From assembly GCA_034520365.1 (NCBI GenBank), contig JAXHNP010000006.1, positions 799,001-863,000 on the forward strand: 64,000 bases of DNA, written 5' to 3'. Each line of letters opens with the position of its first letter. The stretch's first letter is position 1. A program made the translations under genes and the position numbers. This DNA is from Desulfobacterales bacterium (lineage in GTDB: Bacteria; Desulfobacterota; Desulfobacteria; Desulfobacterales; Desulfosalsimonadaceae). Shown here piece after piece: positions 1,963 through 58,989 of the stretch. The notes below the pieces were generated by a model. It was not told the DNA's origin and did no database searches. It saw only the letters and a list, made by a program, of their open reading frames with translations.

Positions 1963-4959
1963 ATGGCAGCGAGCAAGCCGGTCAGGCCCATCAAAATTCT
2001 CCTGGTAGAAGGCAACCCCGGGGCCGTGGATCTTGTTGCCGAGATGCATGCCGAACTTGCATCAGCCGAATATCATATTAAAAAAACAGAAAAGCTGGCC
2101 GATGCCCTTGGGCAGTTGCAAACCGATTTTTATGATATTGTTCTGCTGGATCTGAACCTCCCGGACAGCCGGGGCCTTGAAACACTGCAAAGCCTTAAGG
2201 GGGCGGCCCCCCTGATGCCGGTTGTGGTGATGACCAACCTTGATGACGAGGAAACCGGCCTCGCCACCGTCCACGAAGGGGCCCAGGATTATCTGGTAAA
2301 AGGCAGAATCGACAGCGCCGTGCTCCGGCGGGTAATCCGATACGCCATTGAACGGCAGGAATCGGTCAGGCAGATTCAGCGCTTAAACAATATCTTGTCC
2401 GCCATCCGTCATATCAACCATCTGATTGTCCGGGAAAAAGACCGCCAGCGCTTAATTGAGCAAGGCGTACGCCCCATGGTGGATTTCGGCGCCTGGGATA
2501 CGGCCTGGATTGTGCTTTTTGATAATTCAGGCCAGCCTGAAGCCTGGGCCGAAGCCGGGATCGGGGAGGCCTTTTCCGGGTTGATCGAAGGGTTTAAGCA
2601 GGGCCGTCCCCCGGCATGCGCCCGGGAACTTTTTGCACAGGGCGCTGAAGAGATATTTTTCAGCCATGACCGGCATTCGGTATGCGGGGAATGCCCCCTG
2701 GAACCGCAAATCCAGGGCGGCACCTGCATGAGCTGCCGGCTTCGAAATAACGGCCAGGAATTCGGCATGATCACCGTGGCCCTGAAAACCCAGGCCGCGC
2801 AGGAAAATGAACTGGAACTGGTCAAGGAGGCGGCCGGCGATATTAGCCTGGGGCTTCACGGCATCCGCATCGAGGAGCAGAAAAATGCCGCAGAGGAGCA
2901 GTTTCAGCGGATGTTTTATGAATCCACCTTTCCGGTCATGCTCCATGCCGAAGACGGCGAAGTCCTTGCCGTCAATAAGGTATGGCGGGATCTGACCGGC
3001 TATCGCCATGACGAAATTCCGACCATCGGGGACTGGACCGAAAAGGCTTACGGTGAGCAAAAGAATGAAATAAAGGCCAGTATCGAAGAGCTTTATGAGC
3101 TAAACCGGCGCCGGGATGAAGGTGAGTTTGTCATCCAAACAAAAGACAGACAACAGAGAACCTGGCGGTTTTATACCACCCCCCTGGGTGGTCTGCCGGA
3201 CGGCCGGCGCATCGTCATGAGCCAGGCTGACGATGTCACGGAACAGAAACAGGCGAAAATCTATCGGGAGCACTATATCCAGGAGCTCCAATTGGTGAGC
3301 GATACGATTATCCAGGGCAGCCGGGTGACAGACATTGATGCCCTGTGTCAGCTCCTGGGTGAAACGATCCATGGGGTCAATCCCCGGGCATATGTGCTGG
3401 TTTCTTTGTATGATCGAAAAGAGAAAGCGATCAAGCTGAAGTCCATGCATGGCCTGGAGGCATTGATGGACGGGGCGACAGATTACCTGGAGATGCTCCG
3501 GGATATTAATTTAAGGCCTGAGGAAATGGGCGAAGAGGCGGAGCTTTATACCACCGGACTGCTTGAACAGATTCCGGGCGGGCTATATCAGCTTATGGCG
3601 GAAAAAATTCCAATGGAAACATGCCGGGAGATGGAAGCCCTGCTGGATATCGGCTCGGTATATACCATCGGTTTTGCCCTTGACGACAGGCCCTATGGGG
3701 GGGTGTCCCTGCTTTTAAAAAAAGGTGAGGACCTTGGGTTCCGGTATGCCATTGAAACCCTGGTTAGCCATTTTTCGGTGATTATCAATCGGCAGCAGAC
3801 AGAAGAAGAACGAAAAATGCTTGAATCCGAGCTTCGGCAGGCCCAGAAGCTTGAAGCCATCGGCACCCTGGCGGGCGGCATCGCCCACGATTTCAACAAC
3901 ATCCTGACCGCCATCATCGGCTATTCCGAATTGCTGCTGGAAGATGCGGAAAAGGGAACCCTCTTTGAACAAAATCTCAGCCAGATTTACGCGGCCGGGG
4001 CCCGGGCCAGGGATCTGGTCAAGCAGATCCTCACCTTCAGCCGACAGACAGAGTCGGATATGGTGCCCCTGAATGTCAATCTGCTGGTCAAGGAATCCAT
4101 GAAGCTGCTCCGGGCATCGCTGCCGAAATCCATTGAAATCAAACAGGAGATAGAAACCGACATTTTAGTCAGCGGCGATCCGGGGCAAATTCACCAGATC
4201 ATCATGAATCTCTGCACCAATGCCGCACAGGCCATGGAAAACAGTGGGATAATGACAATCCGGCTTCGAAAAGTGGACCTGGATGCGCACTTTACCGCCT
4301 CGCACTTCGGCATGAAACCCGGGAAACACGTGGCTTTGAGTGTCTCGGATACCGGTCCCGGTATTGACCCGGGGCTTATTGACAAAATTTTTAATCCGTT
4401 TTTTACCACAAAATCTGAGGAAAAAGGCACGGGTCTTGGGCTTTCGGTTGTTCATGGCATTGTTGAAGGCCATCACGGTATGATCGATGTGGCAAGTCAG
4501 CTGGGGCAAGGCAGTGAATTCATCGTTTACCTGCCGGCTGCCGAGTTTGCGCCAACCCAAACAAAAGCAACAGAAAAAGAACTCCCCAAAGGTTCAGAGA
4601 GAATTTTGTTTGTGGATGATGAGCATCCGATTGCCGAGATGGTGGAGCAGCAACTGATAAACCTTGGCTATACCGTGGAGGTCCGCACAAGCAGCATTGA
4701 AGCATTGGAACGGTTCCGGGAAAGTCCGGGGGATTTCGATCTGTTGATTACGGATATGGCCATGCCCGAGATGACGGGTATTATCCTGATCAAAGAGGCT
4801 CGCCGCTTGCGCCCGGATCTGCCGGTTATTCTCTGTACCGGCTTCAGTGAACAGATCAATGAAGAAATGGCAAAAGAAATGGGTGTATCCGCATTTCTGC
4901 TAAAACCCATTGTCCGGGACGAAATGGCAGCCGCGATCCGTGAGGCATTAGACACCTGA
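1963..4959 (+). CDS. Hybrid sensor kinase REC-GAF-PAS-GAF-HisKA-HATPase-REC
   Basis: This is a 998-residue cytoplasmic hybrid histidine kinase. An N-terminal receiver spans about 10-130, but its acidic pocket reads LLVEGNPG where EDN or DDD is usual, so one metal ligand is missing. A GAF-like segment (about 135-310) carries a Cys cluster, CGECP and TCMSC, around residues 240-257. PAS is at about 320-430 and a second GAF-like region at about 440-620. HisKA has the phosphoacceptor His in GGIAHDFNNIL, and HATPase has GTGLGLSVVHGIV. The C-terminal receiver (ILFVDDEHP, LLITDMAMPEM) is complete. An AAAGGAG Shine-Dalgarno (SD) sequence precedes the ATG. The Cys cluster could bind a metal or sense redox (inference). 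Confidence 0.9.
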   Translation: MAASKPVRPIKILLVEGNPGAVDLVAEMHAELASAEYHIKKTEKLADALGQLQTDFYDIVLLDLNLPDSRGLETLQSLKGAAPLMPVVVMTNLDDEETGLATVHEGAQDYLVKGRIDSAVLRRVIRYAIERQESVRQIQRLNNILSAIRHINHLIVREKDRQRLIEQGVRPMVDFGAWDTAWIVLFDNSGQPEAWAEAGIGEAFSGLIEGFKQGRPPACARELFAQGAEEIFFSHDRHSVCGECPLEPQIQGGTCMSCRLRNNGQEFGMITVALKTQAAQENELELVKEAAGDISLGLHGIRIEEQKNAAEEQFQRMFYESTFPVMLHAEDGEVLAVNKVWRDLTGYRHDEIPTIGDWTEKAYGEQKNEIKASIEELYELNRRRDEGEFVIQTKDRQQRTWRFYTTPLGGLPDGRRIVMSQADDVTEQKQAKIYREHYIQELQLVSDTIIQGSRVTDIDALCQLLGETIHGVNPRAYVLVSLYDRKEKAIKLKSMHGLEALMDGATDYLEMLRDINLRPEEMGEEAELYTTGLLEQIPGGLYQLMAEKIPMETCREMEALLDIGSVYTIGFALDDRPYGGVSLLLKKGEDLGFRYAIETLVSHFSVIINRQQTEEERKMLESELRQAQKLEAIGTLAGGIAHDFNNILTAIIGYSELLLEDAEKGTLFEQNLSQIYAAGARARDLVKQILTFSRQTESDMVPLNVNLLVKESMKLLRASLPKSIEIKQEIETDILVSGDPGQIHQIIMNLCTNAAQAMENSGIMTIRLRKVDLDAHFTASHFGMKPGKHVALSVSDTGPGIDPGLIDKIFNPFFTTKSEEKGTGLGLSVVHGIVEGHHGMIDVASQLGQGSEFIVYLPAAEFAPTQTKATEKELPKGSERILFVDDEHPIAEMVEQQLINLGYTVEVRTSSIEALERFRESPGDFDLLITDMAMPEMTGIILIKEARRLRPDLPVILCTGFSEQINEEMAKEMGVSAFLLKPIVRDEMAAAIREALDT

Positions 4960-50668: not shown

Positions 50669-51391
50669 ATGTCAGATAATATCGATTTAATCGGAATGAC
50701 CGGACGGCAGCTCAAAAAAAGGGTCCGCCAACTGCTTGCCTCGGATACGGATATCAATGACATATTGGATGCACTGGCCCGCATTCCCGCCCGAACGGCG
50801 GTCAATCCCTTGTTCGCCTGCTTCTATGATGGCTCGCCGCTTGTCAAATGGCGGGCGGTGGCCGGAATGGGGTTTGTGGTCGCCCGGCTGGCTGAGCGCA
50901 ATATGGAGTCCGCACGGGTCGTGATGCGGCGGCTCATGTGGAATTTAAATGATGAGTCCGGGGGTATCGGCTGGGGCTCGCCTGAGGCTATGGCGGAGAT
51001 TATGGCAAGACAGCCAAAGCTTGCCGATGAATACGGCGCCATTTTAGGCTCCTATGTGCGCCGTGATCAGAATTTTTTAGAGCATGAGGGCCTGCAGCGG
51101 GGTTCGATCTGGGCTGTCGGCCGCTTGGCAAAGGTCCGGCCCGCGCTCCTGCAGGATACGGTCGGCGATTTACGACTTTTTTTGACGTCTCCGGATGCCC
51201 ACCACCGCGGATATGCGGCCTGGTCACTCGGCAATTTAGGCGCCGCGGCGGCTGTTTCAGAGATTGAAGCGCTTTTGGCGGATAATTCGGAAATCGATAT
51301 GTTTCGCGATTTGGCGCTTGTTACAACCCATGTCAGCCGCCTGGCCAAAGAGGCGCTGGCAGCCATCGAAAACGGAAAGGGATCATGCTAG
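50669..51391 (+). CDS. DVU0298-type HEAT-repeat protein
   Basis: This 240-residue soluble helical-repeat protein resembles the family named after Desulfovibrio DVU0298. It has KRVRQLLASDTDINDILDAL, then HEAT-like units (SPLVKWRAVAGMGFVVARLA, SPEAMAEIMARQPKLADEYG, HHRGYAAWSLGNLGAAAAVS). The role is unknown. In related genomes such proteins lie near molybdenum-cofactor or redox genes (recollection, not checked). The ATG at 50669 has AAAGGGGA. It overlaps the next gene by seven bases. Confidence 0.75.
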   Translation: MSDNIDLIGMTGRQLKKRVRQLLASDTDINDILDALARIPARTAVNPLFACFYDGSPLVKWRAVAGMGFVVARLAERNMESARVVMRRLMWNLNDESGGIGWGSPEAMAEIMARQPKLADEYGAILGSYVRRDQNFLEHEGLQRGSIWAVGRLAKVRPALLQDTVGDLRLFLTSPDAHHRGYAAWSLGNLGAAAAVSEIEALLADNSEIDMFRDLALVTTHVSRLAKEALAAIENGKGSC

Positions 51392-52362
51392 TTCTCGGAT
51401 TGCAGGGAAGCCCCCGTAAAAAAGGCAATACCAACCATCTTTCGAACCTGGTGCTCGAGGCGGCCGCCGGCTGTGGCGCGGAAACCCGCCTGGTACAGGT
51501 CCCCCAAAAAAACATCAAGCCCTGTATCGGCTGCACCCAGTGTGAGCGCAAAGGGTTTTGCTCGATCGAGGATGACGATATGGCGTTGGAGATGTATCCG
51601 CTTCTCCGGCGGGCGGACCTGATTATCCTGGCCACGCCGATCTACTTCTATAACACCACCGCACAGCTCAAAGCGCTGATCGATCGGTCCCAGACCCTAT
51701 GGTCGCGAAAGTATAAACTGGGGCTTGTGGATCCGGGGCGCCCCTTTCGCAAAGGGATGATGCTTTCTGTCGGGGCCACAAAAGGCAGGAATCTTTTCGA
51801 GGGGATGACCCTGACCGCCAGGTATTTTTTCGATGCGGTGGGCGCCTCGTTTGACAGCAGCTTAACCTATCGGCACATCGAAAATATCGGGGATATGAAA
51901 AAGCATGATACGGTGGCCGATGATGTCAGAAATGAAATCGAAAAGATGGGCCCGGTCTTTCGAAGAAAAAAAATTCTGTTTGCCTGCCGGGAGAATGCCT
52001 GCCGCAGCCAGATGGCCGCCGCATTTGCCCGTTACATGGCCGGTGATGCCCTGGATGTGGACTGTGCCGGCAGTCAGCCGGCCGAACAGGTCAATCCGGT
52101 AATGCAGGAAGTTATGGCAGAGATCGGCTATGATATGGCCTTTCGCACGCCCAGCAGCCTGAATGCGGCTGTCGAAGCATCGGAGCCGCATATTATCGTG
52201 ACCATGGGGTGCGGTGAGGAATGCCCGCATGTGCCAGGCGTTGAAATGCTGGACTGGGAGCTTCCGGATCCGGCCGGCCAGTCCAAAGAATTCATGTGCC
52301 GGGTAAGGGATGAAATCCAGGCCCGGGTGGAGGCGCTGGTCAGCCGAATCATCAATAAATGA
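51385..52362 (+). CDS. NADPH-dependent FMN reductase/arsenate reductase fusion
   Basis: This 325-residue two-domain protein has an N-terminal flavodoxin-like FMN reductase (about 1-185): LGLQGSPRKKGNTNHLS, a Cys cluster CIGCTQCERKGFC as in iron-sulfur flavoproteins, and ATPIYFYNTTAQLKALIDR. The C-terminal part (about 193-325) is a low-molecular-weight phosphatase fold of the ArsC type (FACRENACRSQMAAAFARYM, with C-x5-R-S and the distal MLDWELPDPAGQS). The arrangement suggests a flavin domain that reduces a fused thiol arsenate reductase or phosphatase (inference). No ars genes are adjacent. Confidence 0.88.
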   Translation: MLVLGLQGSPRKKGNTNHLSNLVLEAAAGCGAETRLVQVPQKNIKPCIGCTQCERKGFCSIEDDDMALEMYPLLRRADLIILATPIYFYNTTAQLKALIDRSQTLWSRKYKLGLVDPGRPFRKGMMLSVGATKGRNLFEGMTLTARYFFDAVGASFDSSLTYRHIENIGDMKKHDTVADDVRNEIEKMGPVFRRKKILFACRENACRSQMAAAFARYMAGDALDVDCAGSQPAEQVNPVMQEVMAEIGYDMAFRTPSSLNAAVEASEPHIIVTMGCGEECPHVPGVEMLDWELPDPAGQSKEFMCRVRDEIQARVEALVSRIINK

Positions 52363-54053: not shown

Positions 54054-54082
54054 TTGACAGATTTTCAGGCAGAAGATATATT
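54054..54082 (+). promoter_or_regulatory. Strong sigma-70-type promoter before the peptide gene
   Basis: TTGACA (54054-54059), a 17-base spacer and TATATT (54077-54082) are close to consensus, followed by A/T-rich TATAATAATG. The start would be near 54090, giving an untranslated leader of about 100 bases. Confidence 0.75.
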
Positions 54083-54121
54083 TATAATAATGCTGCGATG
54101 AACGCAGCGGGCTAAAAAGGG

Positions 54122-54142
54122 GGTGCCGGCAATTTCGGCACC
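54122..54142 (+). promoter_or_regulatory. Hairpin in the peptide-gene leader
   Basis: GGTGCCG and CGGCACC pair around GCAATTT in the untranslated region, 45 bases before the ATG. It may stabilise the mRNA. No U-run follows. Confidence 0.5.
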
Positions 54143-54187
54143 GGATACACGGCTTAATCAATACTTTCAAGAAGAAAGGAGACAATC

Positions 54188-54250
54188 ATGAAGATTAGAA
54201 AAGTCAGAAAAGCGCCCACCGGTCTTTGCAAGTGCAAACGATCCTGCTAG
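54188..54250 (+). CDS. Candidate precursor peptide (20 residues, Lys/Arg- and Cys-rich)
   Basis: The peptide reads MKIRKVRKAP then TGLCKCKRSC. Eight of 20 residues are basic, and three Cys lie in the last seven positions (CxC-x3-C). AAAGGAGAC sits seven bases before the ATG. A near-consensus promoter lies upstream and a 15-bp hairpin with T residues follows directly, so a short abundant transcript is expected. The next genes are two radical-SAM/SPASM proteins. Such enzymes commonly modify small ribosomal peptides, so this is the best candidate substrate (inference). I do not recognise the peptide family. It could also be a regulatory leader peptide. Confidence 0.6.
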   Translation: MKIRKVRKAPTGLCKCKRSC

Positions 54251-54269
54251 CTACCAGATTTTAACTGAA

Positions 54270-54308
54270 AAAATAGCCTGTGCATGCCTTGTCTGCACAG
54301 GCTATTTT
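54270..54308 (+). terminator. Strong hairpin after the peptide gene
   Basis: AAAATAGCCTGTGCA and TGCACAGGCTATTTT form a perfect 15-bp stem around TGCCTTGTC, followed by ATTT. Partial termination here would make the peptide far more abundant than the enzymes encoded downstream. Confidence 0.8.
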
Positions 54309-54330
54309 ATTTGAGCACACACCTTTGCTT

Positions 54331-54684
54331 ATGACCAAAATCGATTTTAAGAGCTATATCTGCCGGCCGTACTGTATTTTTTTCCGGGAAGGGGAAAAAG
54401 AGGAAATGGCCTGCTACGGCGCCCAGGTGGTGGAAGCCCTGGTTGATCGGGGCGTGGTGTCTCCGGAACAGATCACGTTCGCCAAGGACCCGGCGCTTTG
54501 GCACCGGCACCGGCCCGTTATTGAACCCCATGTTTGTTTTCAATGCCCTTTTAGGGCCGAAGATTGCGATTTTCAATCCAATGCTCCCGAAGACGACATG
54601 GAGCCCTGCGGCGGCTATATCGTGCTCACCCTTCTGGTTGAGCATCGCCTGATCGATGAAAAATCCCTGGAAGCGGTGACATGA
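54331..54684 (+). CDS. Cys-rich protein of the radical-SAM cassette, unknown function
   Basis: This 117-residue soluble protein has seven Cys: CRPYC at about 11-15, MACYGA near 28, HVCFQCPFRAEDC at about 69-79, and EPCGGY near 94. The spacing suggests a metal site. The start at 54331 lies 22 bases after the hairpin and has no strong SD; an in-frame ATG at 54280 would lie inside the hairpin. It ends in ATGA shared with the first radical-SAM gene, so the two are translationally coupled. I do not recognise the family. It may be a partner or chaperone for the enzyme or the peptide. Confidence 0.75.
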   Translation: MTKIDFKSYICRPYCIFFREGEKEEMACYGAQVVEALVDRGVVSPEQITFAKDPALWHRHRPVIEPHVCFQCPFRAEDCDFQSNAPEDDMEPCGGYIVLTLLVEHRLIDEKSLEAVT

Positions 54685-55832
54685 CCTGGCAGCAAGCCTA
54701 CCTGCGCCTGGCCCCTGAGGCGGCGTTGAAGCGGCTGGAAATCCCCTATATTTATCATAGAGGAAGAGATGAGCTCTATGAGATCGATGACCGGGCACTC
54801 GATTTTTTAAGCCGGTGCGACGGCCATACAAAAGGCGAAAACCTGACGGATGACGCCGAGTTCGTCGAATACTGTATCGAAGAAGGGATTCTGGAGGCGC
54901 TTGCCGTGCCTGCGCCGATTGATATCACCATCGATCACAGCCCTTCTCCGTCCCTTCGGTACCTGGAACTCCACCTCACCCATCGCTGCAATCTTAAATG
55001 CCGGCACTGCTATCTGGGCAAATCCCGGCCGGCTGAGCTGGCGCTTTCAGAGGCCGTGGATATTACCCGGCAGTTTTCTGAAATGGGCGGACTGCGGCTT
55101 CTGATATCCGGCGGCGAGCCCATGGTTTACCAGGAGCTGGCGTCCTACCTGGAGGCTGTCAGGGATCTTAAAATCCGGCGGATCCTGTTTACCAACGGCA
55201 CCCGCATCACCCCGGATAATATCAAGCAGCTGGATGTGGATGAGATCCAGTTCAGCCTGGACGGCTGGCAAGCGGGGCATGACTGGCTGCGCGGGCCGGG
55301 GGTGTTTGAAAAAACCGTAAACGGGGTAAATATTGCGCGAAAGGCCGGCATTCCGGTCTCCTTTTCCACCATGATCCACAACGGGAATTTGACGGAATTT
55401 GACCGGATGCGCGAATTTATGGCGGAAGTCGAAGCGCTGGAATGGGGCGTTGATATATTGACGGTGGCCGGAGCCCTGGAAGGGCATGCGGATATTACCG
55501 TGCCCTATGAACAGGCCGCCCCCTTGATGGCCTATGCTTACGGCGGGGGCTATCACGGCGCATCTGAAGGCTATGCGTGCGGCCGGCATCTGATGGCGGT
55601 CATGCCGGATGGGAAAGCCGTAAAATGCGGTTTTTACAGGGATCGGCCGCTGGGCGATGCCCGGCAAAGCCTGAAAGACTGCTGGCTGAATATGACGCAT
55701 ATCCGGCTGGACGAGCTTGAATGCCGGGATTGCCCGGTACTTGAAGAATGCCGGGGCGGCTGCCGGTTCCGGGCCTCTCATCCTTTGGCGCCGGATCCCG
55801 CCATGTGCCGGCTTTACGGGATCTCCAGGTAA
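54681..55832 (+). CDS. Radical SAM/SPASM protein with a PqqD-like N-terminus
   Basis: This 383-residue iron-sulfur enzyme has residues about 1-85 resembling a PqqD/RRE-type peptide-binding fold (YIYHRGRDELYEIDDRALDFLSRCDG, FVEYCIEEGILE). The radical-SAM core has CNLKCRHCY (CxxxCxxC) near residue 104 and LLISGGEP for SAM. The SPASM domain is complete: CGRHLMAVMPDGKAVKC, then CRDCPVLEECRGGC and a last MC, giving ligands for two auxiliary clusters. SPASM enzymes typically install thioether, C-C or oxidative changes in peptides. It is coupled to the Cys-rich gene by a four-base overlap; a second radical-SAM gene follows ten bases later. Confidence 0.9.
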   Translation: MTWQQAYLRLAPEAALKRLEIPYIYHRGRDELYEIDDRALDFLSRCDGHTKGENLTDDAEFVEYCIEEGILEALAVPAPIDITIDHSPSPSLRYLELHLTHRCNLKCRHCYLGKSRPAELALSEAVDITRQFSEMGGLRLLISGGEPMVYQELASYLEAVRDLKIRRILFTNGTRITPDNIKQLDVDEIQFSLDGWQAGHDWLRGPGVFEKTVNGVNIARKAGIPVSFSTMIHNGNLTEFDRMREFMAEVEALEWGVDILTVAGALEGHADITVPYEQAAPLMAYAYGGGYHGASEGYACGRHLMAVMPDGKAVKCGFYRDRPLGDARQSLKDCWLNMTHIRLDELECRDCPVLEECRGGCRFRASHPLAPDPAMCRLYGISR

Positions 55833-55842
55833 AAAGCACTTT

Positions 55843-56769
55843 ATGCCCGCATACCTCCAGTTCTATCCCACCCTGCGGTGCAACTTTGACTGCGACTTCT
55901 GTTTTAACCGGCAGCTGCCCGACTGCGGGGATGTGTCGATCGAGAACTTCCAAAAAATGGTGTCCGTGTGCCGGGCAAACGGCATCCGGCACATTGATAT
56001 GCTGGGCGGTGAACCCACATTGCATCCCGGTTTGTTTGAAATGCTGGACCTATTGGTGGATGCGGGATTGATGAGCACCATCAGCACCAATGGCAGCCGG
56101 GTGGAGACGCTTTGGCAAATTTCCGATCGGTATTCAAGGGAATCCGTCCGCCTGGGAATATCCATGAATTCGGAAGATGTTGCCGAGCCGCTCCATCAGT
56201 ATATTCTTTCCCGCCGGCCGATCCTGAAGACGATTTTTTCAAAACACGACTTGATCCCGGACGCATTTAAATCCTATATTGGCCTTCAGGGCATTGAATT
56301 TTACCTGCTTTACCGGGACATCCTCAATTCGGCGGATCTTTTATACAGCCTGCCGTTTGAGGCGTTTTACAGCCGGCTTGTGGACATTAAAAAAGCATAT
56401 GCCGGTGTAGACGGCGTGTTCTGTTCCGGATTTCTCCCGGATCTGGCAGATTTTCCAGAGCTTGGAAATGTGCGCTGCCCGGCGGGCACCACCAAGCTCT
56501 CCGTGCTGCCGGACGGGCGGGTTTTTCCATGCTACCTGCTTTTCCGATACAGTGAATTTGAGCTTGGCAATCTGTTTGAGGATGATTTTGACACCATCTG
56601 GCAGCATCCGACACTGGAAAAATTCAGGCATTTTCAAGGCAACCCGTGCCCGCAAACCGAATGCCGGCTGCATCAGAGATGCCACGGCGGATGTCCGGCC
56701 ATCAGCTACATGTTTGACAAGAATCTCGACGCGCCGGATCCCAGATGCGTCTATCCGGTGAATCAATGA
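55843..56769 (+). CDS. Second radical SAM/SPASM-like protein of the cassette
   Basis: This 308-residue protein begins close to the core motif: YPTLRCNFDCDFCFNRQLPDC (CxxxCxxC at about 13-20), with MLGGEP for SAM. The C-terminal SPASM-like part has CPAGTTKLSVLPDGRVFPC, then C-x4-C-x5-C-x3-C (CPQTECRLHQRCHGGC) and RCVYP. The first pair is spaced wider than the usual CxxC. It lacks the N-terminal PqqD-like domain of its neighbour and may borrow it. The ATG at 55843 gives the normal length; the frame is open further upstream inside the previous gene. Confidence 0.88.
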   Translation: MPAYLQFYPTLRCNFDCDFCFNRQLPDCGDVSIENFQKMVSVCRANGIRHIDMLGGEPTLHPGLFEMLDLLVDAGLMSTISTNGSRVETLWQISDRYSRESVRLGISMNSEDVAEPLHQYILSRRPILKTIFSKHDLIPDAFKSYIGLQGIEFYLLYRDILNSADLLYSLPFEAFYSRLVDIKKAYAGVDGVFCSGFLPDLADFPELGNVRCPAGTTKLSVLPDGRVFPCYLLFRYSEFELGNLFEDDFDTIWQHPTLEKFRHFQGNPCPQTECRLHQRCHGGCPAISYMFDKNLDAPDPRCVYPVNQ

Positions 56770-56800
56770 ACCGTGAACTTTGAACTGTGAACCGTGAACC
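56769..56800. repeat. Heptamer array (CCGTGAA/CTTTGAA/CTGTGAA)
   Basis: Four in-phase units directly follow the stop of the second radical-SAM gene and precede the cupin gene. Confidence 0.7.
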
Positions 56801-56857
56801 TCAAGTTACTTTAGAAGCCCTTATTCTTAAATTGCATAAATATCTAAGGGAGCCCTG

Positions 56858-57196
56858 ATGAAGCCAATCGATTTAAGAACTCCGGCACTTTCTGCGGAAG
56901 ACGGGGAGTATATTTTCGGCAAGGAGCATACCGGCAGCCATGCCTGTTACATGATTTACGGGGTTTTAAAGCCCGGTGAAACGGATCGCCTGGTAAAACC
57001 GGGCGCGGGCCATGAGGAAATGGTGCTGGCCGCCGCCGGGGATCTGGAGGTGACAGGCGCGTTTGCCGGTCGTTTGGCCGCCGGATGCGCGTTTCATATT
57101 GAGGGGGAAGATACCGCATACCTGAGTAACCCGGGATCCGAAGAAGCGGTCTATGTTGTGGCGGGCGGACACTCTGAAGCAGGGCATCATCACTGA
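56858..57196 (+). CDS. Cupin-domain protein
   Basis: This 112-residue single-domain cupin has GAGHEEMVLAAAGDLEVTG (HEE pattern as first cupin motif) and GCAFHIEGEDTAYLSNPGSEEAVYVVAGGH (second motif with GxxxHI). A Gly-His-His-His end follows. Metal binding is plausible but the His/Glu set is not fully canonical. GGGAGCC precedes the ATG. It lies after the radical-SAM pair in the same direction and may belong to the cassette, although the heptamer array separates them. Confidence 0.75.
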   Translation: MKPIDLRTPALSAEDGEYIFGKEHTGSHACYMIYGVLKPGETDRLVKPGAGHEEMVLAAAGDLEVTGAFAGRLAAGCAFHIEGEDTAYLSNPGSEEAVYVVAGGHSEAGHHH

Positions 57197-57222
57197 GGGA
57201 TATGACCTGCGAAAGGAAAAGC

Positions 57223-57318
57223 ATGAAAAAAGGATTCAAAATCAGCCTGGCCATTCTTATTGTCGTGATGTGTGCCGGGTATTTCGGGTTAAAAGCCTAT
57301 GCCCCGCATGTGGAATGA
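57223..57318 (+). CDS. Small single-pass membrane peptide (31 residues)
   Basis: GAAAGGAAAA precedes an ATG encoding MKKGFKISLAILIVVMCAGY followed by FGLKAYAPHVE. It has a basic start, one hydrophobic segment and a short tail. The VVMC sequence does not meet the usual lipobox. Function unknown; it could be a membrane anchor or a secreted peptide. Confidence 0.6.
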   Translation: MKKGFKISLAILIVVMCAGYFGLKAYAPHVE

Positions 57319-57379
57319 GCCTTTTTTAAAACGCTTTTGCCGTGGCGGCCAGACCGCCTGCGGCAATCGGAGGGCGGAG

Positions 57380-57613
57380 ATGGATCTGGACAATTTTTTA
57401 CGACTGGTAAACAATTTCTATTACACCCATACCTATGCGGCCATCGGCATTATTGCCGCCCTTGCCATCATTGCCCTGTTCAAGCCCAAACAAACAGTTA
57501 AGGCGCTTTTGATAATTGCGGGCGTGGTCGCGGTGGGCTATATCCTGTATCTTATCGGCGGGGCGGTATGGTCCGGGTTTACAGACAAGAACCAGATGCT
57601 TCATAAATACTGA
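57380..57613 (+). CDS. Small two-helix membrane protein
   Basis: This 77-residue protein with the ATG at 57380 (GGAGGGCGG upstream) has two hydrophobic segments: TYAAIGIIAALAIIALF at about 18-34 and ALLIIAGVVAVGYILYLIGG at about 42-61. KPKQTVK between them should be on the cytoplasmic side. No family recognised. It is the last gene before a repeat and may be part of the same transcription unit as the cupin gene. Confidence 0.7.
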   Translation: MDLDNFLRLVNNFYYTHTYAAIGIIAALAIIALFKPKQTVKALLIIAGVVAVGYILYLIGGAVWSGFTDKNQMLHKY

Positions 57614-57762
57614 CGGCTTCGCAAAAAGTCCAATATCTTTGTTGCGCTGCATCCCTCGGAATTTCACGTACGCGTCAGTACGCTGCATTCCTCGGGATTT
57701 GCGCGCCGCGATCTTGAACTTTTTTCTTTGCCGTCCCGAAATCGACTTTTTACGAGTCCATC
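57612..57762. repeat. MITE-like element of a second family
   Basis: GACGGCTTCGCAAAAAGTC at the left and GACTTTTTACGAGTCCATC at the right are imperfect inverted ends (about 15 of 19). The interior has CCTCGG(G/A)ATTT repeats. It begins within the stop of the preceding gene. Only one copy is seen in the window. Confidence 0.65.
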
Positions 57763-57789
57763 AATACTAATCTTTGAAAAAGGCAGCCT

Positions 57790-58989
57790 ATGCCTCAGGC
57801 ATTCGATCTCTCAGATGACAGGTTAGCTGAAATTGCCCGTCAGATGGAGGAAAAAACGCGCGACGGGTTAAAGAAAGATGGCGGCGAGCTTCTTTGCATC
57901 CCCACGTTCGTACCCATCCGGTCCATCCCCCAATCCGGCCGCCTGTTGGCGCTGGATCTCGGGGGCACCAATGTGCGCTGCGCGCAGGTTGCCCTGGATT
58001 CGGGCCGGCTTAAATTTGAAAAAGGGCCGGTTAAAGAGCGGCTTACAAATGAGCAAGAGCGGCAGTTGGATCAGACGGATTTTCTGGACCGGCTGGCCAA
58101 CATTATACATTCCGTTGAACCGGCTTCAAATCTGCCCCTGGGATACTGCTTTTCATATCCGGCCGAACCTACAAGAGACGGGGATGCGGTTCTGCTGCGG
58201 TGGACCAAGGAAATGTTTGTTGCCGATACGGTGGGGCAAAAGATCGGTGAAATGCTGTGCCGGCACTTGGCTGGCCGGCATTTCTTTTGGCAGTGCACGA
58301 AGGTAAAAGTAATCAACGACACGGTGGCAGCCCTGCTTGCCGGCATGGGGGCGCCCGGTGCAGATGCCTATATCGGGCTCATCGTGGGGACCGGCACCAA
58401 CATGGCGATATCCCTGCCCACCGGGCGGATGCCTAAGATGACCGAAGACCGGGACGAAACCGTTGAGCTGCCGGTCAATTTGGAATCCGGTAATTTCCGG
58501 CCGCCCTTTTTGACCGAATGGGATGAAAAGCTGGACCGGGAATCCAATAATCCGGGCCAGCAGCGGTTTGAAAAAGCGGTTTCCGGCCAGTATTTAGCCC
58601 ATCTCTTTAAACTGCGTCTGCCGGAGAGCCGGATTGATACCCGGCAGGGCGCGGCAGCCGTATTTGAAAAAGCTTACGGGGCATCCGCTGAAACGGATAC
58701 GGAAAAAGAGATGGCAAAAGCGATTATCAATCGCTCCGCCCGGCTGGTGGCAGCGTCCCTGGCCGGCCTCATCTCCTTTTTAGCGACAGGTCGGGCGCAG
58801 CCGGTGAAAAAAGTTGTAATAACCTCTGAAGGCGGTGTTTTTTGGGGGCATCCGGCATATAAAGAAGCAGCCGAGTATGCATTGCGGCATTTGTTAAATG
58901 CCAAGGGCCTGTCAGGGCTTGATTTTGAGTTTTTGGCTCTTGACCATGCCAATCTGTTGGGCAGTGCCATTGCCGGGCTCTCAGAATGA
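57790..58989 (+). CDS. Hexokinase of the eukaryotic type
   Basis: This 399-residue protein is expected to phosphorylate glucose or other hexoses with ATP. Motifs are those of the hexokinase family rather than bacterial glucokinase. The phosphate-1 loop is LLALDLGGTNVRCAQV (about 53-68), the sugar-binding segment LGYCFSYPAE, and the catalytic Asp lies in VINDTVAALLAG. Further motifs are IGLIVGTGTNMA and the signature NLESGNFRPPFLTEWD, then ESNNPGQQRFEKAVSGQYLA. Eukaryote-type hexokinases are rare in bacteria. Base composition is like the neighbours, so any transfer is old. Monocistronic or followed by two small genes. Confidence 0.88.
   Translation: MPQAFDLSDDRLAEIARQMEEKTRDGLKKDGGELLCIPTFVPIRSIPQSGRLLALDLGGTNVRCAQVALDSGRLKFEKGPVKERLTNEQERQLDQTDFLDRLANIIHSVEPASNLPLGYCFSYPAEPTRDGDAVLLRWTKEMFVADTVGQKIGEMLCRHLAGRHFFWQCTKVKVINDTVAALLAGMGAPGADAYIGLIVGTGTNMAISLPTGRMPKMTEDRDETVELPVNLESGNFRPPFLTEWDEKLDRESNNPGQQRFEKAVSGQYLAHLFKLRLPESRIDTRQGAAAVFEKAYGASAETDTEKEMAKAIINRSARLVAASLAGLISFLATGRAQPVKKVVITSEGGVFWGHPAYKEAAEYALRHLLNAKGLSGLDFEFLALDHANLLGSAIAGLSE

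Follow-up and report, generated by a model that had tools for sequence, protein, structure and literature searches.

What is made from a gene of only 20 codons that stands a short way upstream of genes for radical-SAM/SPASM enzymes, and what would a cell use it for? The question is raised by a locus in the 4.33-Mb genome of a Desulfobacterales bacterium, studied here in a window, the whole stretch of DNA analysed, of 64,000 nucleotides (contig JAXHNP010000006.1, positions 799,001 to 863,000). An original prediction had placed at 54054-57613 of the window a peptide-modification cassette comprising a promoter, the 20-codon gene, a hairpin, a Cys-rich protein, two radical-SAM/SPASM genes and a cupin, all of which are confirmed and lie on the plus strand. 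The peptide and one of the enzymes are found together, with few exceptions, across genomes of two phyla, and the cassette is probably a self-contained radical-SAM system for a ribosomally synthesized and post-translationally modified peptide (RiPP), whose proposed product is a small peptide of the cytosol that binds metal or acts in redox chemistry.

Co-occurrence of the peptide and the maturase

The enzyme in question, a radical-SAM/SPASM maturase of 383 aa (54681..55832), is predicted from its fold to have an N-terminal domain of the PqqD-like type, or RiPP recognition element (RRE). Its profile was searched in two phyla. The window's phylum was represented by 395 genomes and the second by 295, chosen around a Nitrospirae locus (the Nitrospirota group), and carriers were defined by E <= 1e-50 for the enzyme and E <= 0.01 for the peptide; weak peptide matches at E 0.03-0.05 in G154, G166, G352 and G395 (window's phylum) and G618 (Nitrospirota group) were not counted. 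The enzyme is present in 39 of the 395 genomes and the peptide in the same 39, with no peptide in the other 356. In the Nitrospirota group, 95 genomes have both, three the enzyme only (G483, G488 and G742), three the peptide only and 194 neither; the enzyme of G483 consists of residues 6-180 only, at a contig edge, and the contig of G488 stops ~100 bases past the enzyme. Fisher's test gives p < 1e-50 for the association, a value that ignores relatedness.

This association is not simply one of neighbouring genes. Peptide and enzyme genes are no more than 2 kb apart in 35 of 39 carriers of the window's phylum, the exceptions being G066, G119, G269 and G353, and in 64 of 95 carriers of the Nitrospirota group, the remaining 31 having distant copies only; 35 of the 134 genomes with both thus have no peptide beside the enzyme, yet carry it elsewhere. 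Altogether, 67 peptide matches have no enzyme gene within 2 kb, such as the 19-residue peptide of a maturase-bearing genome at L184 (G617, 4042-4095). Part of the peptide profile was drawn from the surveyed genomes, and the unlinked copies, including the peptides of the four exceptions, were not in it. Near-perfect co-occurrence over two phyla, even without linkage, points to a clear maturase-substrate pair, for which no description was found in one open-licence library.

Two further settings were noted. In Ca. Electronema, a cable bacterium, peptide and maturase (L033, 5872-7155) stand between rpsB-tsf-pyrH-like and frr-uppS-like genes, as judged by eye, an odd place for a RiPP. Moreover, an unlinked peptide copy adjoins an acetyl-CoA-synthetase-like gene, also judged by eye, at L170 (4990-5049) and L178 (5370-5429), and one of these two genomes, G554, has no maturase.

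Conservation of the peptide

The precursor gene of the window (54188..54250), preceded by AAAGGAG at 54175-54181, encodes MKIRKVRKAPTGLCKCKRSC, a 20-residue peptide without a hydrophobic signal segment and without a Pfam match. It had been expected that orthologous enzymes would be accompanied by a short open reading frame (ORF) with a TGLCKCKRSC-like end, and such a peptide is consistently present. Among 27 distinct close loci (the window and 26 relatives), 26 have a short ORF ending in CKC[K/G]xxC-stop, and because of this recurrence the 20-codon ORF is not a product of chance. A contig end truncates the copy at L028, that at L016 begins with TTG and L030 carries two copies; the single close locus without the peptide is L039, where the enzyme match is a 66-residue piece (residues 272-337).

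Selection is seen to act on the protein itself. In 23 close peptides, the proportions of synonymous and nonsynonymous differences (pS and pN) are 0.69 and 0.12, a pN/pS of 0.18, and DNA identity averages 0.77 in the peptide genes against a background of 0.30 in ungapped flanks, as anticipated for a gene conserved at the protein level. Six duplicate loci were omitted from the peptide set used for these values and for the promoter and fold scoring below. In 38 chosen aligned peptides, all 20 residues long, Met1, Ile3, Cys14, Lys15, Cys16 and Cys20 are invariant, and exceptions outside this set are Val3 in L192 and the L215 peptide, which runs two residues past the last Cys. The three cysteines are spaced as CxC and CxxxC. 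A Nitrospirota clade has a 19-residue version starting MIKKV. The core is nearly invariant across enzymes that are ~40% identical, and such constancy speaks for a housekeeping role of the product and against its use as a weapon.

Signals around the peptide gene

A near-consensus promoter upstream of the 20-codon gene and a 15-bp hairpin downstream of it had also been described, and both hold. The sigma-70-type promoter, TTGACA-17-TATATT (54054..54082), agrees with the consensus at 11 of 12 positions; a scan of the region gave two promoter-like sites against a shuffle mean of 0.6 (standard deviation 1.0), and such sites lie upstream of many, though not all, related peptide genes. Directly 3' of the promoter is an inverted repeat, CTGCG-N5-CGCAG (54093..54107), a candidate 5' hairpin or operator, the arms of which are of the TCGCG/CGCGA type in some close relatives, with the complementarity kept.

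The terminator-like hairpin 3' of the peptide gene (54270..54308) consists of a perfect 15-bp stem closed by a loop of 9 bases, with a T-rich tail, and the 80 bases after the stop codon fold at z = -6.1 (60 shuffles). The stretch after the stop folds at z < -2 for 54 of 77 peptide genes. A terminator scan did not list this hairpin because it allowed loops of 3-8 bases, and the three sites that it listed are on the other strand; an Rfam search returned sub-threshold matches only. The order of the two linked genes is enzyme first and peptide second in family f37 and at those Nitrospirota loci that were seen; in Nitrospirota the peptide gene often has its own TTTACA-TATAAT-type site, while the best promoter-like sites of f37 peptide genes are poor (7-9 of 12 matches).

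Predicted structure and action of the maturase

The radical-SAM CxxxCxxC motif and Cys 300, 316, 348, 351, 357, 361 and 376, read against the SPASM consensus spacing, are the same in all 16 sequences aligned, and the maturase matches PF04055 at 76 bits. In the scan of window proteins, the Pfam SPASM family matched the second enzyme only, and no PqqD match was obtained in the maturase. The assignment of an N-terminal recognition domain thus relies on the predicted fold. The maturase model has a mean predicted local distance difference test score (pLDDT) of 84 and a predicted template modelling score (pTM) of 0.81, and the nearest solved fold is SkfB (Z 24.0, model residues 12-363 against SkfB 12-387), which is also the best solved chain by sequence profile (E 4e-20). 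With SuiB the model aligns from end to end, also with the SuiA-bound entry (Z 22.5, model 7-381 against SuiB 1-439); both alignments, with SkfB and with SuiB, cover the N-terminus. Sulfatase-maturing enzymes and CteB score Z 22-24 in alignments confined to the radical-SAM and SPASM regions, and PqqE (6c8v) is found at Z 18.8 and 20.4. A model of a natural fusion of the Cys protein with the maturase is of higher confidence (pLDDT 94.6, pTM 0.92) and has the same fold neighbours.

None of the radical-SAM equivalog cut-offs of NCBIfam is reached by either enzyme among the matches listed (25 of 75 and 25 of 70 matched families), and all scores are far below. The maturase scores 77.2 bits against a cut-off of 625 with the StsB sactipeptide maturase model (NF045574), 76.2 against 381.35 with PqqE and 65.3 against 265 with the mycofactocin maturase; for the second enzyme the last two models give 49.8 and 76.4 bits.

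It is very likely that the enzyme modifies the peptide, with the basic N-terminus docking on the RRE as a leader and the C-terminal CKCxxSC entering the active site. In such a mechanism, the RRE domain would bind the MKIxKV segment, and the C-terminal cysteines would reach the radical-SAM/SPASM centre. The change would fall on or beside the cysteines, most likely as a thioether or another Cys cross-link, a proposal that we hold with somewhat better than even confidence.

Partner proteins and recurring neighbours

The core of the system is the peptide plus the enzyme, and the profiles found nothing more in Ca. Electronema or at the majority of the Nitrospirota loci examined. Among the 27 close loci, where some contigs end before the genes in question, the seven-Cys protein occurs at 24, the cupin at 20 and the second radical-SAM protein at 15 (hidden Markov model E <= 1e-30). 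The original prediction fared unevenly here. The cupin is part of the cassette, and so is the seven-Cys protein, as their recurrence indicates. In contrast, two radical-SAM enzymes as an essential pair did not survive, the second (308 aa, 55843..56769) being an accessory protein restricted to close relatives of the window. Likewise, a tblastn search of 71 longer loci found neither of the two small membrane proteins proposed as export parts (best E 0.69), and the suggested cutting or release at the Cys end finds no support, as neither a peptidase nor an exporter is among the gene clusters recurring across clades.

The seven-Cys protein of the window (117 aa, 54331..54684) overlaps the start of the maturase gene at 54681, and its seven cysteines are invariant in 25 of 25 sequences. 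Ten genomes of the window's phylum (families f36, f79 and f84) encode it as an N-terminal fusion with the enzyme, and in a tree of 88 rows, from which short, duplicate and fragment loci were omitted, these fusions occupy two separate regions. Family f37 has a shorter Cys protein upstream of the enzyme, 2 of 28 Nitrospirota loci (L085-L112) have a Cys protein, and a single ORF of G573 (Nitrospirota) combines it with the cupin. The protein has no NCBIfam family and, over 25 members, no Pfam family: seven families match one member each at E >= 0.098 (Fer4_4 at 0.42). Fold searches with the fused model did not place the Cys domain and provide no evidence of a new fold, because the match lists were filled by the radical-SAM domain. 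The protein is a true partner of the enzyme, as a subunit or a domain, and may assist in electron transfer or in presenting the peptide; a family without assignment has gained a testable partner. The cupin of the window (112 aa, 56858..57196) is not matched by Pfam Cupin_2, although 10 of 14 proteins of its group are, at E <= 0.1 (best 5.7e-6).

Few flanking genes are shared between clades, the exceptions being an ABC-ATPase-like cluster, seen at 10 loci, and in Nitrospirota a TPR/ispE neighbourhood. A DUF1284 gene beside one Nitrospirae locus was rejected as a partner and considered incidental, because it is present in that genome only among the loci compared. At six Nitrospirota loci (L150, L154, L155, L161, L162 and L169), a further protein cluster lies near the maturase or peptide genes, its L169 member being an Fe/Mn superoxide dismutase (PF02777).

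Unlinked peptide copies and metal genes

The unlinked copies offer a view of what the peptide may do. Sixty-five were scored, 60 of the 62 from the Nitrospirota group and five from the window's phylum, with a metal neighbour being a phmmer match within the retrieved stretch, either to the core of one ATPase (E 1e-20) or to the YHS domain of that ATPase (E 1e-3). Seven weak matches were left out, namely G154, G166, G352, G395, G618, the partial match G368:C205 (E 0.004) and G724:C8 (E 0.0097, with an internal stop). When Lys17 is replaced by His or Tyr (H/Y17), 21 of 25 copies adjoin genes for P-type metal ATPases or YHS proteins, the others being L196, L214, L219 and L224. The corresponding counts are 1 of 40 (L232) for the remaining unlinked copies and 0 of 39 for control enzyme loci, at 8 of which no peptide was found nearby. 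Stretch lengths are alike between the compared sets (median 8.0 kb). The pattern was first noticed on the initial unlinked copies and then scored on all 65; in a hand count of peptides not in that first look, 14 of 17 H/Y17 copies against 1 of 22 others lie beside metal genes.

Where motifs of the nearby ATPases are readable, 12 are CPC, three CPH and one YPC, motifs that are informative about the metal, and small Met-rich or His-rich proteins accompany several of these ATPases. Together they suggest that the metal at H/Y17 clusters is copper. Should the link be true, relatives of sulfate reducers, the cable bacterium and Nitrospirota would make a peptide that binds metal by way of a radical-SAM enzyme.

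Nature of the product

The nearly invariant core, the absence of a recurring exporter or peptidase and the His/Tyr variants in metal-ATPase clusters are the reasons for proposing an intracellular product with a metal or redox role. The product most likely remains intracellular; that it serves there as a small peptide for binding soft, copper-type metals or for thiol redox is given even chances, and the step from the neighbours of H/Y17 paralogues to the function of the window's peptide is a best guess. A broader proposal is put forward tentatively, as one that may well prove wrong: widespread, hitherto undescribed miniature metallopeptides of 20 residues in the cytosol, cross-linked at CKC...C by an RRE-SPASM enzyme aided by the new seven-Cys domain, would buffer or deliver copper-type metals in anaerobes, and Lys-to-His copies would have been recruited to copper-resistance clusters.

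Several observations weigh against the interpretation as a whole. The metal link is confined to H/Y17 paralogues of the Nitrospirota group, and CKCK forms like that of the window lack metal neighbours, as the low counts for other unlinked copies and enzyme loci show. Two enzyme-linked peptides are also His17 (L064 and L078), and no metal genes occur in the 12-kb stretch of L078. The loci are related, the metal genes of 20 of them forming three single-linkage groups at 70% identity. The peptide cut-off of E <= 0.01 was chosen after the results and the gap had been seen. Three genomes (G554, G677 and G732) carry the peptide without the enzyme, their best enzyme match being no better than E 4.7e-33 against <= 1e-50 in carriers; since the two copies of G677 sit in a metal cluster, the unmodified peptide may also be useful. 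Finally, the modification is itself putative, all reasoning being drawn from sequences and predicted folds.

Among other explanations, a redox-cofactor pathway of the pyrroloquinoline quinone (PQQ) or mycofactocin kind, in which the tiny peptide is consumed and a small cofactor cut out after radical-SAM chemistry, survives best and is nevertheless unlikely. A very short, near-invariant precursor and a PqqD-like/SPASM maturase fit that logic, as do the PqqE fold match and the patchy but conserved presence. However, neither a peptidase nor a dehydrogenase recurs across clades, the PqqE and mycofactocin-maturase scores (76 and 65 bits) fall far short of 381 and 265, and some genomes have several paralogous peptides, some of them in metal clusters.

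Somewhat less likely still is an unmodified miniature metallothionein, the three thiols of which bind metal while the radical-SAM enzyme acts elsewhere. It would account for the metallothionein-like CKCKxxC spacing, for the H/Y17 copies beside metal ATPases and for the three genomes with the peptide alone, but not for the coincidence of enzyme and peptide, also where the genes are unlinked, in all 39 carriers of the window's phylum and in 95 of the 101 of the Nitrospirota group, nor for their proximity in most of these genomes, and the RRE-type fold predicted for the enzyme would imply a peptide substrate.

An exported antimicrobial or signalling peptide is improbable. The nearest solved fold is indeed that of a sactipeptide maturase, SkfB, with CteB close; yet, apart from the ABC-ATPase-like cluster mentioned above, no gene of transporter, peptidase or immunity type is conspicuous for its recurrence beside the cassette, and the core stays near-invariant over divergent enzymes, whereas antimicrobials usually diversify. 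A Cys-sensing attenuator leader with the hairpin as a regulated terminator, to which the short ORF with Cys codons before the hairpin and a sub-threshold Rfam Thr_leader match (22 bits against 55) would conform, is strongly disfavoured and was rejected, as the whole peptide and not its Cys codons alone is conserved, its gene follows the enzyme in f37 and Nitrospirota, often with its own promoter-like site in the latter, and 67 matches are unlinked.

Other features of the window

Downstream of the cassette, a repeat-like stretch (57615-57770) begins GGCTTCGCAAAAAGTCC and is possibly a dispersed element; its first 18 bases are found once in the window, and a similar start lies 3' of the L013 peptide gene. 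It is followed by a hexokinase ORF (57790-58989; PF00349 110 bits, PF03727 125 bits), here in a bacterium, of a mainly eukaryotic family. Upstream, ORF 51385-52362 fuses an FMN-reductase domain (PF03358) with an arsenate-reductase/low-molecular-weight phosphatase domain (PF01451), and it scores 79.5 bits with TIGR02689, under the cut-off of 157.6.

Comparison with known systems

In one open-licence library, no mention was found of TGLCKCKRSC or of six core heptapeptides, no relevant paper on GeoRSP, and no description of radical-SAM/SPASM enzymes with a metallothionein, with a Thermodesulfovibrio precursor peptide or with an RRE in Deltaproteobacteria; the motif CKC is absent from PMC12710340, PMC4289311, PMC7470986 and PMC8326336. 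This is apparently a new radical-SAM RiPP family, found in anaerobes of two phyla and built on a 19-20-residue Cys peptide and one dedicated enzyme. Maturases of the SkfB, SuiB and CteB type share its radical-SAM core and SPASM domain by fold, and the SkfB and SuiB matches include the N-terminal peptide-binding domain, but identity is ~16-22%, and the cassette has a far smaller precursor and an extra seven-Cys partner. GeoRSP (TIGR04303), a system of related bacteria, also combines a PqqD-like part with a pair of radical-SAM/SPASM proteins, whereas the enzymes of the cassette reach 57.3 and 50.3 bits against a cut-off of 400. The PQQ and mycofactocin systems resemble the cassette in a tiny conserved precursor with a PqqD-like/SPASM enzyme, and differ in that their cut-offs are not reached and no peptidase or dehydrogenase partner recurs here. 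Metallothioneins have comparable CxC and CxxxC spacing; the present peptide has three Cys only, no Pfam match and a dedicated radical-SAM partner.

For the H/Y17 copies, the closest analogy lies with the copper-binding RiPPs made by MNIO enzymes. No MNIO family is among the Pfam matches of the nine window proteins scanned. Bufferins, according to PMC12452194, are MNIO-modified, Sec-exported copper chelators, that is, Cys-based modified peptides in copper homeostasis. Their system relies on an MNIO enzyme and a Sec signal peptide, in contrast to the radical-SAM enzyme and the basic, signal-less 20-residue peptide described here. If the metal link is true, the cassette would represent a radical-SAM parallel to MNIO-made bufferins and methanobactins.

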